From Candidatus Chloroheliales bacterium (GTDB lineage Bacteria > Chloroflexota > Chloroflexia > QHBQ01), in the NCBI GenBank assembly GCA_003243865.1, contig QHBQ01000329.1, forward strand, positions 1-6,303: 6,303 bases of DNA, written 5' to 3'. Made by a program: the position numbers and the translations under genes. The stretch's first letter is position 1. Each line of letters opens with the position of its first letter. Below, piece by piece: positions 3 to 5,958 of this stretch. Under the pieces are notes generated by a model. The model did not search any database and was not told the DNA's origin. It saw only the letters and a program-made list of their open reading frames with translations.

Positions 3-713
3 ATCGTTGGTACTCTGCTACAGGCGGCTATCCTCCCCTTCACCAGCCCTCAGCAGCTAGTCTACTCCAACGCTGGGGCAATGTCGTGGATGACCTCCAG
101 CGTGCTGATGAACACCAACACTGGCGGCGGACTGGGCAAGATGTTTGGCCGGATGGTCTCCGGCAGCAGCGCGTTCGTGGTTGACTATAGTGCGCCGCAA
201 GGGCCTGGCACCGTGGCCTTCACCGCCCGCTTCCCTGGCAAGATCGTGCCAATCCTGCTCGCGGCGGGACAGAGTATTATCATGCAGAAGCAGGCTTTCC
301 TGGTCGCTGAGAAGAGCGTCGAACTGAGCATCGCTTTCAACCAGAAGCTGGGCGCGGGCTTCTTCGGCGGTGAGGGCTTCATCCTGCAGCAGTTCACCGG
401 CCCCGGCCTCTGCTTCGCCGAGCTTGATGGCGAGATTGTCGAGTACACGCTCGCCTCTGGACAGGTGATGAGCATCAAGGCCGGTCACGTCGCTATGTTC
501 GAGCCGACCGTTAGCTTCAACATCCAGATGGTCAAGGGCTTCACCAATATCCTGTTCGGCGGCGAAGGCCTATTCCTCGCCACCCTGACCGGCCCTGGCA
601 AAATATGGCTGCAGACCATGCCGATGATGGAACTGGCCGAGCGCATCGCTCACTACCTGCCGCACACTGGCGGCGGTGGCGGCGAACCCGGCATCCGCCT
701 CAACTTCGGCTAA
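3..713 (+). CDS. AIM24 family protein (DUF124/TIGR00266-like), 5' end missing
   Basis: The reading frame is open from the first bases of the window to the TAA at 711-713, so the start lies upstream; the ATG at 81 is internal. Visible are 236 codons. The segment YSNAGAMSWM followed by TGGG is the N-terminal hallmark of the AIM24 family (compare 'AEAGAM' and 'TGGG' in bacterial members). Two copies of an FGGEG-F/L-x-L-x-x-x-TGPG unit occur, at about 360-407 and 555-599, as expected for this beta-rich fold, which resembles TRAP-like barrels. A Gly-rich tail (HTGGGGGEPG) ends the protein. No signal peptide or membrane helix is seen in the visible part. The yeast namesake is a mitochondrial inner-membrane organisation factor; the bacterial role is not established and I assign none. 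It is separated from the next gene by 130 bases and is probably not part of a tight operon with it. Family call is firm; function is unknown. Confidence 0.88.
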   Translation: MVGTLLQAAILPFTSPQQLVYSNAGAMSWMTSSVLMNTNTGGGLGKMFGRMVSGSSAFVVDYSAPQGPGTVAFTARFPGKIVPILLAAGQSIIMQKQAFLVAEKSVELSIAFNQKLGAGFFGGEGFILQQFTGPGLCFAELDGEIVEYTLASGQVMSIKAGHVAMFEPTVSFNIQMVKGFTNILFGGEGLFLATLTGPGKIWLQTMPMMELAERIAHYLPHTGGGGGEPGIRLNFG

Positions 714-843: not shown

Positions 844-1929
844 GTGAATATCGAGTTCGTCCTCCGCATCGTGGGAGCGGCGACACTTGGCGTGCTAGCC
901 TGGTTCTTTGCTGCCATCTATTACCCCGATAAGATACTCGGCAACTACCCGGTCGGCTACCCGCTGGCGCTCGCTGCTGCCATCGCTGGCTTGCTCGGCA
1001 CCCCTTACCTTACCACCCGCCCGTTCCGCTGGCTCATCACCCGTCTGCGCCAGCTTGCCACCGCCGATATTCTCGCCACTAGCCTCGGCCTGATCATCGG
1101 GCTGGTGGTCGGCGCGTTGCTGGCCGGACCGCTCTCCGTTTTGCCTGGCCTGATCGGGCGGATTGCCCCCACTGCCGTCAGCATCTTCTTCGCTTATATC
1201 TTCGCCTGGCTGATGGTGCAGCGCAAGCGTGACCTCAGCGACTTCTTTGGCCGGATTAGCCGCCCTTCGCTGATGCCTGCTGCCGCCAGCCCCGGCCTGA
1301 TTGGAGCCGAGGGATTGCAACCAGCCGCGCGTTACTTCCTGGTGGACACCAGCGCGGTCATTGATGGGCGCATCGCCGACATCAGCCTGACCGGATTCAT
1401 AGATGGCACTCTGCTCGTTCCCCGCTTCGTCCTCAACGAGCTTCAGCACATTGCCGATTCCGCCGATGCCCTGCGCCGCAATCGCGGGCGGCGCGGCCTG
1501 GAGATGCTCAACCGCCTGCAGAAAGATGCGATAGTGCCAATCCAGGTTACCGACATAGACGCTGAGGGCGTGGCCGAGGTGGACAGTAAGCTGATCAAGA
1601 TCGCCCGCCAGAACCGCTACCCGATCATCACCAACGATTACAACCTCAACCGCGTCGCTGAGCTACAGGGCGTCAAGGTGCTAAACATCAACGAGCTTGC
1701 CAATGCCATCAAGCCGATCGTGCTACCCGGCGAAACGATGGATGTTCACCTCGTCTCCGAGGGCAAGGAACTGGGCCAGGGCATCGGCTACCTCGACGAT
1801 GGCACGATGGTGGTGGTGGAGAACGGCAGGCGGTATCTCGGTCAGGATATTGAAGTGCTGGTCACCCGCGTGCTGCAAACCACCCAGGGCCGCATGATCT
1901 TTGCCCAGATGCCGGGCAACAATTCCTAA
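844..1929 (+). CDS. Membrane-anchored PIN/TRAM domain protein (YacL-like putative RNase)
   Basis: This 361-residue protein starts at GTG 844, seven bases after the Shine-Dalgarno AGGAGG at 831-836. The N-terminal third has four likely membrane helices (about residues 8-27, 40-57, 78-95 and 107-125), followed by a basic QRKRD segment and a linker. A PIN domain runs from about 163 to 290. It starts with FLVDTSAVIDGRI and carries the four acidic residues expected for metal-dependent nuclease chemistry: D168, E199, D247 and D265 (in ITNDYNLN). A TRAM domain, a small RNA-binding barrel, covers about 296-353 (GETMDVHL, GIGYLDDGTMVVVENG). This order matches the YacL family of Firmicutes and relatives in other phyla. 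From family knowledge it is probably a membrane-tethered ribonuclease, with the PIN and TRAM parts in the cytoplasm; its substrate is unknown. Unlike free PIN toxins it has no adjacent antitoxin gene. A small hairpin (808-821) lies just upstream of the ribosome binding site. Confidence 0.93.
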   Translation: MNIEFVLRIVGAATLGVLAWFFAAIYYPDKILGNYPVGYPLALAAAIAGLLGTPYLTTRPFRWLITRLRQLATADILATSLGLIIGLVVGALLAGPLSVLPGLIGRIAPTAVSIFFAYIFAWLMVQRKRDLSDFFGRISRPSLMPAAASPGLIGAEGLQPAARYFLVDTSAVIDGRIADISLTGFIDGTLLVPRFVLNELQHIADSADALRRNRGRRGLEMLNRLQKDAIVPIQVTDIDAEGVAEVDSKLIKIARQNRYPIITNDYNLNRVAELQGVKVLNINELANAIKPIVLPGETMDVHLVSEGKELGQGIGYLDDGTMVVVENGRRYLGQDIEVLVTRVLQTTQGRMIFAQMPGNNS

Positions 1930-2001: not shown

Positions 2002-2087
2002 CCTATCGGGCGAGGAATGCTTTCAAGGGCATAAAGAATGAACATTTCAGCCATGATCTGCTACTAATGAGGTGATAGAACAATAAT

Positions 2088-2098: not shown

Positions 2099-2731
2099 GT
2101 GATTGGCAAGCTCTGGGCAGACTGCGCACACTTCGGGCCAAGCAGCATCGAGCAGACGGAGGTGAGTCCGCTAGCGATGGCTGACGAGTATGATGTGCAA
2201 CTATTGCGGCGGATGGCGGATGGCGACGAGGCCGCCCTCGACGACCTCTACGCCCGCCACGCTCCCGCCCTCTTTAGCTACCTGCTGACCCTGACCGATG
2301 ACCGCTTCGAGGCGGAAGAGGTGCTGCAGGATACGCTCGTCGTAGCCTGGCGCTCTGCCCGCCGCTTCGAGGGCCGCGCCAGAGTGAGGACATGGCTGCT
2401 CGCCATTGCTCATCGCCAGGAGCGTGACCGCCGCCGTCGCCACGCGATCACCATCGGCCCTGAAGCCGAGCTGGACCGCCTCACTGACGTGGCGCGGGGG
2501 CCGGAGGAACTGGCGCTGGCCCACGAGGAGGTCGTCGAGCTTGGCGCACTGGTCGCGCGGCTCAACCCCAGCCAGAGAACAATACTGGCGCTAGCCTTCG
2601 TCCACCAACTTTCCTACGCTGAGATTGCCGCCGTGCTTGATCTGCCAATCGGCACGGTGAAGAGCCGCCTCAACAATGCGAGGAACGCCTTGCAGTCGCT
2701 TCGTGATCAGCAGCAGGAGGTGCCTGAATGA
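2099..2731 (+). CDS. ECF-type sigma-70 family RNA polymerase sigma factor
   Basis: The longer form has 210 residues from GTG 2099; starting at ATG 2177 it has 184. Region 2 spans about residues 32-115: a DGDEAALDDLYARHAPALFSY helix, then AEEVLQDTLVVAWRSARRF (the core-binding and -10 recognition part) and RTWLLAIAHRQERDRRRR. Region 4 spans about 148-201, with the helix-turn-helix LSYAEIAAVLDLPIGTVKSR that contacts the -35 element. Regions 1 and 3 are absent, as is normal for the extracytoplasmic-function type. In this family, conserved homology usually begins near residue 27, so the first 26 residues may be untranslated or a poorly conserved extension. Its stop overlaps the start of the anti-sigma gene as ATGA (2728-2731), the classic sigma/anti-sigma coupling. 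It probably directs transcription of its own operon, which is inferred and not shown. The role call is firm; the exact start is not. Confidence 0.93.
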   Translation: MIGKLWADCAHFGPSSIEQTEVSPLAMADEYDVQLLRRMADGDEAALDDLYARHAPALFSYLLTLTDDRFEAEEVLQDTLVVAWRSARRFEGRARVRTWLLAIAHRQERDRRRRHAITIGPEAELDRLTDVARGPEELALAHEEVVELGALVARLNPSQRTILALAFVHQLSYAEIAAVLDLPIGTVKSRLNNARNALQSLRDQQQEVPE

Positions 2732-3597
2732 CGCTGTTTTTGGAACATAGTGAAGCTGCCGACCTGCTCGCAGCTTACGTGGCAGGTACGCTTACCGAGG
2801 CCGAGCGCAAGGTAGTGGCCGCGCACATCGGCGTCTGCCCTAGCTGTGAACAGAGCGTTGCGCAATGGGCGGCGGTACGAGATGCAGTACGGGTCGCCGC
2901 CCCAACTTCAGCCCCTCACCCGCAGGTTCTGGAGCGCATCCATAAACTGATTGCTCCCGCCTCTGCCAGCCTCCAGCTCGGCTTTGTCTGGCAGTTGCTG
3001 CTGGCGCAACTGCCACTGGTGCGGCGGCAGATTTGGGCCGCTTCCGCGCTGGTGATGGGTCTGGGCGTGGCGGTAGCGCTCACTTTCGAGCGCGGCTCAG
3101 GCACGGTGCTGGCTTTGCTTGCGCCTATTGTTGCCGCCGCTGGCATTGGCTTCATCTACGGCCCTGATAACGACCCTCCGCTGGAACTGGTGCTGGCAAC
3201 CCCGACCTCGCCCCGCCTTGTGCTGCTCACCCGTCTCAGCCTCGTGTTCGGCTACAATCTGCTCCTTGCCTTGCTGCTATCTGCACTGGTCACCGTTCTG
3301 GGTCAGGCACCCGCCGGGTTGCTGCAACTGGTCTGGCGCTGGCTCGGCCCGATGCTGCTGCTCTCCGCCATCAGCCTGGCGCTGTCGCTGCGCTTCGGTT
3401 CTGCCCCAGGCGTGGCGGCAGCCCTCAGCCTATGGGCGGTGAGTGTGGGGCTGTTGAATCAAATTGATCAGCCGAACGTCCCCGCTGCCCAGGCGCTCAC
3501 CTTGCTCGGTTCGACTAACCTTCTCACCCTGCTGCTGGCGATGGTTATCGGCACGGCGGTGGTCATCTGGTTGCCGCACCAGGAGTGCCTGGCATGA
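2728..3597 (+). CDS. Zinc-finger (zf-HC2) anti-sigma factor with a six-helix, ABC-2 permease-like membrane domain
   Basis: The 289-residue protein starts at ATG 2728, overlapping the sigma stop by four bases; AGGAGG (2715-2720) precedes it by seven bases. Residues 1-55 form an anti-sigma zinc-binding domain: a short helix (DLLAAYVAGTL), then H33-x3-C37-x2-C40, the standard ZAS/zf-HC2 ligand set. Family knowledge says this cytoplasmic part grips the sigma factor. After a linker (about 56-85) come about six hydrophobic segments: 102-120, 125-144, 170-192, 205-221, 227-243 and 263-282. Typical anti-sigma proteins have a single helix and an outer sensor domain; this one has almost no extracytoplasmic domain. 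The loop ELVLATPTSPRLVLLTR (153-169) resembles the early cytoplasmic loop of ABC-2 permeases and matches the same place in both following proteins. I infer a regulator whose sensor is permease-like. It could instead be a true transporter subunit. The anti-sigma domain call is strong; the permease kinship is moderate. Confidence 0.87.
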   Translation: MTLFLEHSEAADLLAAYVAGTLTEAERKVVAAHIGVCPSCEQSVAQWAAVRDAVRVAAPTSAPHPQVLERIHKLIAPASASLQLGFVWQLLLAQLPLVRRQIWAASALVMGLGVAVALTFERGSGTVLALLAPIVAAAGIGFIYGPDNDPPLELVLATPTSPRLVLLTRLSLVFGYNLLLALLLSALVTVLGQAPAGLLQLVWRWLGPMLLLSAISLALSLRFGSAPGVAAALSLWAVSVGLLNQIDQPNVPAAQALTLLGSTNLLTLLLAMVIGTAVVIWLPHQECLA

Positions 3598-4274
3598 ACC
3601 ACGAACTGTGGCGCTATGAACTGCGGCGCATTGGCTGGCTGGCGCTGGTCGGCCCGCCGCTGGCGCTAATGGGGATTGGCCTGCTCGCCCTCGTCGCTAA
3701 CCAACTCGGTCATGCCGACCAAGTGGCCCGCATTCTCACCACCAGCCTCGATGTGCTGCCGTTGGTCGGTGGGGTGGCCGCAGCCACGGCGGTGAGTGCT
3801 GATGAGGCGCTCGAGTTGCAATTGAGCCTGCCGACCACCTTTCGCACCACGATCATACGCAGGCTGGCTCTGAGCCTGGGTTGGACAGGCCTGCTTGCGT
3901 TCGCTTCCACTCTGGCCTTGAGCGTGAACGGCAGCCTACGAGGGGCGAACTCGCTGCTTGGCGACCAGTTGACCTGGCTTGCCCCGCTGCTGTGGCTGGT
4001 GGGAGTAGCTACCGCTCTCAGCCTCGGCTTGCGGGCGGCAGTAGTCGGCAGCGGCCTGATTGCGGTGCTGTGGGTAGTCGAGCAGGTGCTGAAGGATTTG
4101 TTCGCCGCCATCCCTTGGCTCGAACCGCTCTGGCTGTTCGAGCGCTGGCAGCCGCAGCAAGCGATGCAGTGGGGCTTCAACCGCTTCGTGCTGCTTGCTT
4201 CGGCTGCTGCGCTGCTGGGGCTGGCCTATTGGTTGCTTGGTCGTCCTGAGCGGCTACTCAAAGGAGATAATTGA
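3594..4274 (+). CDS. ABC-2-like membrane protein (putative permease subunit A)
   Basis: The chosen start is ATG 3594, which overlaps the anti-sigma stop as ATGA and follows AGGAG (3581-3585) by eight bases; a GTG at 3585 is in frame but lies inside that ribosome binding site. The 226-residue product is very hydrophobic, with about six helices (13-35, 52-68, 90-111, 128-146, 148-166, 197-215) and a basic cytoplasmic-looking N-terminus (WRYELRR). The loop DEALELQLSLPTT (70-82) followed by RRLALSLG is the conserved early loop of ABC-2 permeases, where large families read E-L-L-L-x-x-P-x-S. No large outer domain is present. With the neighbouring permease and the ATPase it probably forms an export channel; the substrate cannot be inferred. 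The gene ends one base into the next start. Sequence divergence from well-known permeases leaves the call resting on topology, motif and context. Confidence 0.72.
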   Translation: MNHELWRYELRRIGWLALVGPPLALMGIGLLALVANQLGHADQVARILTTSLDVLPLVGGVAAATAVSADEALELQLSLPTTFRTTIIRRLALSLGWTGLLAFASTLALSVNGSLRGANSLLGDQLTWLAPLLWLVGVATALSLGLRAAVVGSGLIAVLWVVEQVLKDLFAAIPWLEPLWLFERWQPQQAMQWGFNRFVLLASAAALLGLAYWLLGRPERLLKGDN

Positions 4275-5047
4275 TGACCTCCACTCTAAACTGCTTCGCG
4301 GGCGCGTTGCGCTACGAGTTTCGTATGCAACTACGCCGCCCCGCCGTCTGGACCCTGATCCTGGTGGTGGGCGTGCTGCTGGGTATCCTCTACTTGCTCC
4401 CTGACCCGACCGACCCGGCCTATGTCACGGTGGCGGAGCGAACCCAACTTTTCAACGGCTTCCTGCCGATTGCTTACGGCATCTTGCTGGCTGACCGGCT
4501 AGCGCGCGAGCGCCGCTTGCACACCGATGAGCTACTCGCCAGCCTGCCAGCGAGCGTTGACTCACGGCTGTGGGGCAAGTATCTGGGCGCAGTTGCCGCT
4601 ACAGCTATCCCTGCCGCGCTTGTCTACCTGATGGAGATTTCCTTCATCGCCATTACGCGCCTCGACGCCTCGCTGCTACCGCTGGAAGTTCCTGCCTTCG
4701 CGGCGATCGTCTTGCCCACCTTGCTCTTCGTCGGCGCCTTCTCAATCGTCTGCACCGCGGTCCTCCCACCGCCCTTGTACTCGATTCTGTTCATCGGCTA
4801 CTGGTTCTGGGGCAACGAGGTCACCCCTCAGCAGATACCCACCCTCAACTGCTCACTGCTCACCCCCAACGGCCTCTACGCCAGGGTTGGCATCCTGGGT
4901 GGCGACATGACCCCCACCTGCCGCAACAGCATTGCCCATATTAGCGTGGCCCAGGCATGGGCGAGCATTGGCTTGCTGCTCGGCCTAGCAACGCTGGCAA
5001 TGGCCATCGGCCAGTTTTACCTGAACTGGCGGGCCGCCCGCCGCTGA
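4274..5047 (+). CDS. ABC-2-type transporter permease (subunit B)
   Basis: The start is ATG 4274, which shares its A with the previous TGA stop (TGATG). AAGGAG at 4261-4266 precedes it by seven bases, better placed than for the in-frame TTG 4271. The 257-residue protein opens with a basic amphipathic stretch (LRYEFRMQLRRPAVW) typical of ABC-2 permeases, then helices at about 24-42, 59-74, 103-128, 140-163, 168-180 (weak) and 228-250. Between helices 2 and 3 lies LARERRLHTDELLASLPAS (76-94), the conserved E-R ... E-L-L-x-S-x-P-x-S loop that contacts the ATPase. A longer loop (about 181-227) is predicted to be outside the membrane and contains C193 and C216, which might form a disulfide. It is likely the partner of subunit A in the exporter powered by the downstream ATPase. 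Substrate unknown. Confidence 0.82.
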   Translation: MTSTLNCFAGALRYEFRMQLRRPAVWTLILVVGVLLGILYLLPDPTDPAYVTVAERTQLFNGFLPIAYGILLADRLARERRLHTDELLASLPASVDSRLWGKYLGAVAATAIPAALVYLMEISFIAITRLDASLLPLEVPAFAAIVLPTLLFVGAFSIVCTAVLPPPLYSILFIGYWFWGNEVTPQQIPTLNCSLLTPNGLYARVGILGGDMTPTCRNSIAHISVAQAWASIGLLLGLATLAMAIGQFYLNWRAARR

Positions 5048-5054
5048 TCGGCGA

Positions 5055-5061
5055 TAAGGAG
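5055..5061 (+). promoter_or_regulatory. Ribosome binding site fixing the start of the ABC ATPase
   Basis: TAAGGAG stands six bases before ATG 5068. This decides against the upstream in-frame ATG at 4957, which would overlap the permease gene by about 90 bases and add 37 residues without family resemblance. Confidence 0.75.
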
Positions 5062-5067
5062 ATCGAG

Positions 5068-5958
5068 ATGAACATCGAAATACGCAACCTGACCAAGACC
5101 TTCGACGCAGGGGTGCTTGCGCTCAAAGGTGTCAATCTTACTATCCCCACCGGGATGTACGGGCTACTCGGCCCCAATGGGGCGGGCAAGACCACCCTGA
5201 TGCGTATCCTGGTGGGCATCATGCGACCAAGCAGCGGGCAGTTGCGGGTTGGCCCCTACGACCTCGCCACCAGCGCGGGGCGGCTGGCGGTCAAGCGTAT
5301 CCTCGGCTATCTGCCCCAGGAACTGGGTCTCTATCCCGACCTCAGCGCCGCCGAGTTTCTCGATTATGTGGGTATCCTCAAAGGCCTGGATGATCGCCAG
5401 AAGCGGCGAATGCGGGTCAGCGAACTGCTAACCACCGTCGGCCTCGCTGATGTCGCTGGCCGCAAGCTGAAAGGCTTCTCCGGCGGGATGCAACGGCGGG
5501 TTGGTATCGCCCAGGCCCTGCTCAACGACCCGCAGTTGCTCATCGTAGACGAGCCGACCGCTGGCCTGGATCCCGAGGAGCGGATTCGCTTCCGCAATCT
5601 GCTGGTCAGTCTGGCGGGCGACCGCAGCGTGCTGCTCTCCACCCATATCGTCGAGGATGTCGCCCAGACCTCGTTGCGTCTGGCGGTGCTAGCCGCAGGC
5701 GAGGTGGTCTTCGAGGGCGAAACCGCGCAGTTGCTCACCGCTGCTCGCGGGCAGGTCTGGACCATGGACACTACCGGGCCAGTGCCAACTGGTGACCTGA
5801 CAGTGGTCTCCGCGTTCAATACCGGCGCAGGGATGCACTATCGGATCGTCTCCAGTGTACGGCCCGGCGCTGATGCTGAACCCACCGAACCCAGTTTGGA
5901 GGATGGCTACGTGGCGCTGATGCGCGCGCGCACAGTGTCGTTGCTCACTGCTGCCTGA
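5068..5958 (+). CDS. ABC transporter ATP-binding protein
   Basis: From ATG 5068 the product has 296 residues. It begins MNIEIRNLTKTF, with F12 at the adenine-stacking position. All nucleotide-binding motifs are intact: Walker A GPNGAGKTT (35-43), Q-loop Q84 in LGYLPQELG, signature FSGGMQRR (137-144), Walker B LLIVDEP with catalytic E162, D-loop around GLDP (166-169) and switch H193 (STH). The order and the YLPQ/LYPDLSAAEFLDY segment are those of ATPases that energise ABC-2 exporters. Residues from about 205 onward form a C-terminal extension ending in EPSLEDGYVALM, the usual tail motif of this subfamily ('P-S-L-E-D-x-Y'). The gene lies 20 bases after permease B, as last member of the sigma/anti-sigma operon. 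It presumably works as a dimer on the cytoplasmic face with the two permeases, and perhaps with the permease-like anti-sigma protein. The substrate is not deducible. Confidence 0.95.
   Translation: MNIEIRNLTKTFDAGVLALKGVNLTIPTGMYGLLGPNGAGKTTLMRILVGIMRPSSGQLRVGPYDLATSAGRLAVKRILGYLPQELGLYPDLSAAEFLDYVGILKGLDDRQKRRMRVSELLTTVGLADVAGRKLKGFSGGMQRRVGIAQALLNDPQLLIVDEPTAGLDPEERIRFRNLLVSLAGDRSVLLSTHIVEDVAQTSLRLAVLAAGEVVFEGETAQLLTAARGQVWTMDTTGPVPTGDLTVVSAFNTGAGMHYRIVSSVRPGADAEPTEPSLEDGYVALMRARTVSLLTAA

Follow-up and report, generated by a model that had tools for sequence, protein, structure and literature searches.

Organization of the locus

The stretch of DNA analysed here (the window, 6,303 nucleotides from contig QHBQ01000329.1 of a Candidatus Chloroheliales bacterium) carries on its forward strand a compact operon of five genes spanning positions 2099-5958. 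These encode, in order, an extracytoplasmic function (ECF) sigma factor, a protein that we name AsPerm (P0001 in our searches), permease A, permease B and an ATP-binding cassette (ABC) ATPase (Table 1). Neighbouring genes overlap by 1-4 bases at three of the four junctions: the start of AsPerm overlaps the sigma factor stop by 4 bases, and the starts of the two permeases each overlap the stop of the preceding gene. The last junction is a gap of 20 bases. An AGGAG-like stretch lies ahead of the start of every gene; the sigma factor gene begins at a GTG preceded by GGAGGAG, an ATG at 2177 being an alternative start. Permease B matches the Pfam model ABC2_membrane_2 below its cut-off, and PF12679, PF12698, PF12730 or PF13346 were found in some listed relatives.

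Table 1. Features of the window; residue numbers refer to the protein named in the same row or in the nearest gene row above it (aa, amino acids; TM, transmembrane helix; model, AlphaFold2 model)
Feature	Position	Strand	Basis and remarks
ECF-type operon promoter	2039..2068	+	-35 TGAACATTT (2039-2047), -10 TGCTACTAAT (2059-2068); conserved before related sigma genes
ECF sigma factor gene	2099..2731	+	GTG 2099; Pfam Sigma70_r2 5.7e-14, Sigma70_r4_2 1.1e-14; TIGR02937 90.9 bits (cut-off 42.9)
AsPerm gene, 289 aa	2728..3597	+	ATG; anti-sigma domain fused to ABC-2 permease domain
Zinc anti-sigma domain, residues 6-58	2743..2901	+	H33 2824-2826, C37 2836-2838, C40 2845-2847
Elbow (connecting) helix, 84-97	2977..3018	+	Model; alignments to ABC exporters start at 78-90
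TM1 (100-119), TM2 (124-141)	3025..3150	+	Model; long helices
Coupling helix (150-156, short) and motif E153-x5-P159-x9-R169	3175..3234	+	Model, alignment
TM3 (162-190), TM4 (198-223), TM5 (225-244), outer helix (251-261, short), TM6 (265-281)	3211..3570	+	Model; TM helices long
Permease A gene, 226 aa	3594..4274	+	ATG 3594; ABC-2 fold; nearest paralogue of AsPerm membrane domain
Permease A coupling motif E74-P80-R90	3813-3863	+	
Permease B gene, 257 aa	4274..5047	+	ATG 4274; ABC2_membrane_2 E 0.0011
Permease B coupling motif E86-P92-K102	4529-4579	+	
ABC transporter ATPase gene, 296 aa	5068..5958	+	ABC_tran 5.2e-31
AIM24 protein	81-713		Upstream of operon
PIN-TRAM protein	844-1929		Upstream of operon; promoter lies between this gene and the sigma gene

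AsPerm joins a zinc anti-sigma domain to an ABC-2 permease domain

The N-terminus of AsPerm matches the Pfam model zf-HC2 (E 3.2e-8; 33.9 bits, cut-off 22.2), in agreement with a sequence-only reading of the window that had located a zinc motif there; the motif has the form H33-x3-C37-x2-C40, and its three residues are invariant in a 28-row alignment (A2). The domain finds a fold match in RslA (3hug), and the AlphaFold2 model of AsPerm (28 alignment rows, mean predicted local distance difference test score (pLDDT) 83.9, predicted template modelling score (pTM) 0.67) begins with four helices. Judged by its sequence and fold the N-terminus is a class I zinc anti-sigma domain, with an entropy of 2.01 bits in the AsPerm alignment. 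Seven shorter homologues in alignment A1 (P0053, P0067, P0076, P0083, P0085, P0090 and P0092) are without this domain, possibly because they are truncated or their start is misassigned. Class I zinc anti-sigma factors are usually soluble or carry a single TM helix plus an outer part. AsPerm resembles RslA, ChrR and RsiW of this class in its Hx3Cx2C domain, its RslA-like fold and the position of its gene right behind an ECF sigma gene, but differs from them in that its remainder is an ABC-2 permease domain.

That remainder had been predicted from the letters alone to be a six-helix bundle in place of a single helix with an outer sensor, and the model indeed displays six TM helices, to which it adds an elbow and a coupling helix; no outer sensor domain is visible in it. 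The model and the VIA alignments to ABC exporters together recover the anatomy of an ABC-2 exporter, namely an elbow helix, six TM helices, a coupling helix between TM2 and TM3 and an outer helix before TM6, so that the anticipated similarity of fold was found. Pfam profiles of the ABC-2 families gave a mixed picture: none is listed for the window protein itself, for which zf-HC2 is the sole listing at E<=5, and matches above the cut-off occur in its relatives P0061 and P0047, with 7 of 36 members matching at E<=0.01. Direct comparison of profiles aligned the AsPerm membrane domain with permease A of the same operon at a probability of 97% (3e-11), and the two permeases with each other at 36%. 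Permease B was also considered as the origin of this domain and set aside, since hhalign gave only 0.3%; this value, the permease A profile and the tree described below lead us to name the permease A lineage as the source. Taken by sequence profiles and predicted structure, the membrane part of AsPerm is a homologue of ABC-2 permeases, and the proposal that an anti-sigma domain was fused to a permease paralogue is upheld by the fold, the permease A match and the tree.

AsPerm could instead belong to the anti-sigma factors with six TM helices and a DUF1109 domain, such as NrsF, the transporter genes being incidental neighbours. The excerpt of PMC8156234 describes CarR as just such a six-TM membrane anti-sigma factor, and the likeness to AsPerm lies in this general plan. 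However, DUF1109 is not listed at E<=5 for the window protein nor at E<=0.01 for any of the 36 members, and the helices thus gave no match to this other sensor family; the ABC-2 fold, the homology to permease A and the fact that AsPerm travels with sigma factor and transporter genes likewise set it apart, making this identification very improbable.

The loop ELVLATPTSP of AsPerm, which had been noted to align with loops of permeases A and B, does so with E153, E74 and E86 sharing a common frame E-x5-P-x9-[RK]. This frame is present in 33/36 aligned AsPerm proteins, 8/8 permease A and 23/25 permease B sequences, against 2-4% of residue-shuffled sequences. In an ungapped projection on one and the same Pfam profile the motif glutamate occupies position 99 in P0049 and 100 in both P0085 and P0003 (permease B); it falls at 113 in P0047 and 156 in P0061, the matched stretches of which exceed the profile range in length by 10 and 46 residues. 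The coupling helix of ABC-2 exporters is the contact to the ATPase, and we take the AsPerm stretch to be its equivalent. Among 14 segments of AsPerm the entropy is lowest at residues 142-162 (0.92 bits), with the outer segments at 2.36 and 2.81 bits, the latter being 245-264. Such conservation argues against the idea that the permease domain is an inherited membrane anchor that has lost contact with the ATPase, as an ATPase-facing helix would be needless in an anchor. On that idea either proteolysis or the zinc or redox chemistry of the anti-sigma domain would supply the signal, in keeping with the invariant zinc triad and with the ability of zinc anti-sigma domains to act as redox sensors mentioned in PMC7406223. 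Yet in 28 of 58 relatives HxxxCxxC is missing while the membrane domain and a neighbouring sigma factor gene are present, and we consider a mere anchor unlikely.

Distribution, exchanged heads and partners of AsPerm

A protein search among 7999 scored candidates recovered 88 proteins at E<=0.001, one of them being the protein of the window itself. When one genome per species was scanned for two peptide patterns of the membrane domain, 17 loci were obtained, 16 in Chloroflexota-group records and one in Kutzneria; all 17 encode the sigma factor, AsPerm and both permeases, and 15 a detected ATPase; in the other two (L001 and L005) the locus runs off a short contig. AsPerm occurs in at least 21 of 400 genomes from the phylum of the Levilinea record G008 (E<=1e-20) and at least 5 of 396 from that of Kutzneria (E<=1e-16), counts that are lower bounds drawn from samples including genomes already found, with at most six candidates scored per genome. 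The actinomycete Kutzneria buriramensis DSM 45791 possesses the full module of sigma factor, AsPerm, permease A, permease B and ATPase (L010, 7157-11180).

With identical copies removed and the window included, 58 distinct AsPerm genes from Chloroflexota and Actinomycetota were obtained at E<=1e-9, not all of them independent as three Ktedonobacter copies are near-identical. An ECF sigma factor gene lies ahead of AsPerm in 58/58, of which 57 were flagged by script and L014 by inspection (its open reading frame (ORF) is extended upstream; sigma 2983-3630, AsPerm match from 3627). The same order is seen in L076 and L087, outside the 58. Permease A or B was detected beside 52, and an ATPase at 34, the flanks of many loci reaching only about 1.5 kb. 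The architecture is not confined to the window. Neither permease was detected at L059, L060, L066, L067, L073 and L082; in L066 and L073 another multi-TM gene takes their place.

We built a tree by a quick method from 95 membrane domains sampled from 151 (zinc AsPerm 24/29, non-zinc AsPerm 27/27, permease A 26/44, permease B 18/51), leaving out hits below 170 aa and the fusion in L078 and flagging three long rows. AsPerm membrane domains form one clade (97 in the Shimodaira-Hasegawa-like approximate likelihood ratio test, SH-aLRT), which adjoins permease A; permease B forms one clade (SH-aLRT 100), and the permease A sequences fall on one side of a branch whose support is only 55. The N-terminal heads carried by this single clade are of several kinds. 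HxxxCxxC is present in 30/58 proteins and absent from 28/58, the latter comprising long proteins, which have HEAT repeats where tested, and others with a short head. The Pfam model HEAT_2 matches at 2e-11 in L016 (7521-8627) and 3.3e-20 in L046 (1060-2229); the remaining tree rows labelled HEAT were so assigned by a length above 350 aa without HxxxCxxC. The possibility that the non-zinc heads are relatives of the zinc domain was dropped, profile comparisons giving only 0.2-4%, and it is a guess from gene position that they too bind sigma factors. The sigma-facing domain would have been exchanged (zinc, HEAT, short) over a permease core that was kept, and we hold this, as part of the sigma-coupled transporter class proposed below, at even odds.

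Both permeases accompany AsPerm in 13/15 zinc loci with a detected ATPase (exceptions L074 and L082) and in 6/7 such long non-zinc loci (exception L075). Seven loci of the short type (L063-L065, L068, L071, L072 and L076) have the order sigma factor-AsPerm-permease B-ATPase with no permease A detected, L068 having an additional six-TM ORF 217 bases downstream; these operons suggest that AsPerm can be the sole partner of permease B. In L078 (5146-7035) AsPerm (20-325) and permease B (367-628) occupy one 629-aa frame followed by permease A, with no ATPase found in 10.5 kb around; coming from a single metagenome-assembled genome, this frame may be a real fusion or the product of a lost stop. L077 (2974-5427) shows a permease A-permease B-ATPase operon in which sigma factor and AsPerm were not detected, a candidate for a plain transporter of the ancestral form. 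From the gene contents of the permease A-less operons, L078 and L077, we infer that AsPerm replaced permease A as the partner of permease B.

AsPerm might, on the other hand, stand outside the working transporter and compete with permease A for the same partners, permease B and ATPase, in which case the sigma factor would read the stoichiometry of the complex, that is a free or missing partner, and not the transport cycle. Permeases A and B are after all both kept beside AsPerm in the five-gene operons, AsPerm is a paralogue of permease A, and the gene overlaps hint that the proteins are made in a coupled manner; but in L063-type operons no permease A was detected that could act as a competitor, and we regard this alternative as rather unlikely, though less so than the anchor.

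We also considered AsPerm as the only permease at the sigma factor-AsPerm-ATPase loci L059, L060 and L067, and rejected this because upstream genes may be members of these operons. A membrane protein of 679-724 aa precedes the sigma factor in each (L059 327-2429, L060 376-2550, L067 800-2839), with five TM segments by hydropathy and a start that appears ABC-2-permease-like by eye; that of L067 has no Pfam match and is accompanied upstream by an additional 238-aa protein, all frames overlapping.

A conserved promoter before the operon

A conserved promoter of the layout TGAACATTT-N11-TGCTACTAAT precedes the operon. Among loci with at least 220 bases upstream, a strict form of this pattern is present in 31/56 upstream regions and 0/56 control stretches inside sigma genes (100 Markov-shuffled sets: mean 0.6, maximum 3), and a looser form in 34/56 and no controls (shuffles: mean 2.5, maximum 6), both patterns having been written after viewing the sequences. 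Several of the 25 misses of the strict pattern are by eye variants of the promoter. In the 31 matches the sequence of the first box goes with the type of head, being TGAAC in 16/16 zinc loci and in L076, TGCAAC in six long non-zinc loci and CGAAC in eight short ones, head types that are also clustered by kinship.

Searches of whole genomes returned 17 exact sites, 16 of them at AsPerm operons; the patterns were built from these very promoters, and the counts show rarity elsewhere, not the full regulon. With the zinc pattern, five genomes gave four exact sites, each at the operon, and no further site at one mismatch; in the fifth genome the contig starts inside the sigma gene. The Anaerolineae pattern has four in nine genomes, all at the operon; five genomes have no match, and a single one-mismatch site (L089) lies away from the operon. 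With the short pattern, five genomes gave nine exact sites, of which eight belong to operons, that in G015 being assigned by position only, and one lies elsewhere (L088). Among the eight is the operon of L087, which the protein search had left unreported (cut-off 1e-20, six candidates scored). The promoter is presumably read by the operon's own sigma factor, and its rarity elsewhere in the genomes points to a compact natural circuit.

Proposed mechanism and relation to known systems

We propose, with a probability of roughly 0.55, that the five genes constitute a self-contained, autoregulated ABC-2 exporter in which a permease paralogue, AsPerm, retains the sigma factor and frees it depending on the state of the transporter. 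A duplicate of the permease A lineage would have gained a cytoplasmic anti-sigma domain just before the elbow helix, a position which in the ABC-2 fold would lie beside the ATPase. At rest this domain would bind and inhibit the ECF sigma factor, keeping it at the membrane. In a complex of AsPerm, permease B and the ATPase, substrate or ATP turnover would drive AsPerm into a new conformation, and movement of the coupling and elbow helices would be passed to the anti-sigma domain so as to release the sigma factor. Once freed, it would transcribe its own operon from the TGAAC-TGCTACT promoter, and transporter would go on being made until the load has gone. Membership of AsPerm in the transporter complex is probable; that sigma release follows the transport state is more tentative, its chances being a little below even. 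We rate at evens the wider proposal of a class of sigma-coupled transporters, in which an ABC-2 permease subunit is the anti-sigma factor, a single protein links the transport cycle to RNA polymerase and the main target of the sigma factor is the transporter's own promoter.

In BceAB-BceRS flux sensing, as described in the excerpt of PMC6978683, an ABC transporter signals how active it is and so brings about the induction of the genes that encode it. The AsPerm system would work in an analogous manner without being a member of that kind: there the relay is a separate histidine kinase and response regulator, whereas here the proposed relay is a permease paralogue and a sigma factor, and a Pfam scan of the five genes found no kinase. 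ECF sigma genes beside ABC transporter genes are also known from SigY-YxlCDEFG of Bacillus subtilis, where the anti-sigma proteins of SigY are small, and from ECF257. The window sigma factor scores 100.7 bits against the SigY equivalog NF007216, below the NCBIfam cut-off of 194. The ECF257 passage of PMC8999054 lists ABC transporter genes as neighbours of that group, places it among those without an anti-sigma factor and contains no permease fusion. AsPerm and permease A share their fold and coupling-helix anatomy with ABC-2 exporters of the NosFY/KpsMT kind, for which we know of no N-terminal anti-sigma domain or sigma factor partner. An ABC-2 fusion is not mentioned in section 6 part 1 of the class I anti-sigma survey PMC7406223 or in the excerpt of PMC8103513, and no description of an anti-sigma/ABC-2 permease fusion was found in the titles and abstract starts searched, a scope outside which lie supplements and the 2021 NAR ECF reclassification, where one may be mentioned.

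In our judgement the perception of signals by membrane anti-sigma factors without an outer sensor is an open question. If the proposed mechanism is correct, sensing would fall to a transporter core whose fold and ATPase-driven motion are both known, and the system would be a sigma factor counterpart of BceAB flux sensing built from fewer components. The conserved grouping of AsPerm with its sigma factor, the other transporter genes and a promoter suggests that the transporter itself senses the need for more transporter.

Neighbouring genes and other features

In 26 loci the 15 largest sets of shared neighbours included none that names a substrate, those widely shared being, by inspection, reverse-strand or shifted-frame ORFs over the operon genes and the 679-724 aa protein; small sets are shared by two or three loci, such as signalling proteins in L008, L061 and L077. 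The N-terminal third of the PIN-TRAM protein appears hydrophobic by eye. Between its gene and the operon promoter, at 1952-2001, lies a long GC-rich inverted repeat (CACCGCCCCCATCTCC ... GGAGATGGGGGCGGTG), perhaps a terminator.
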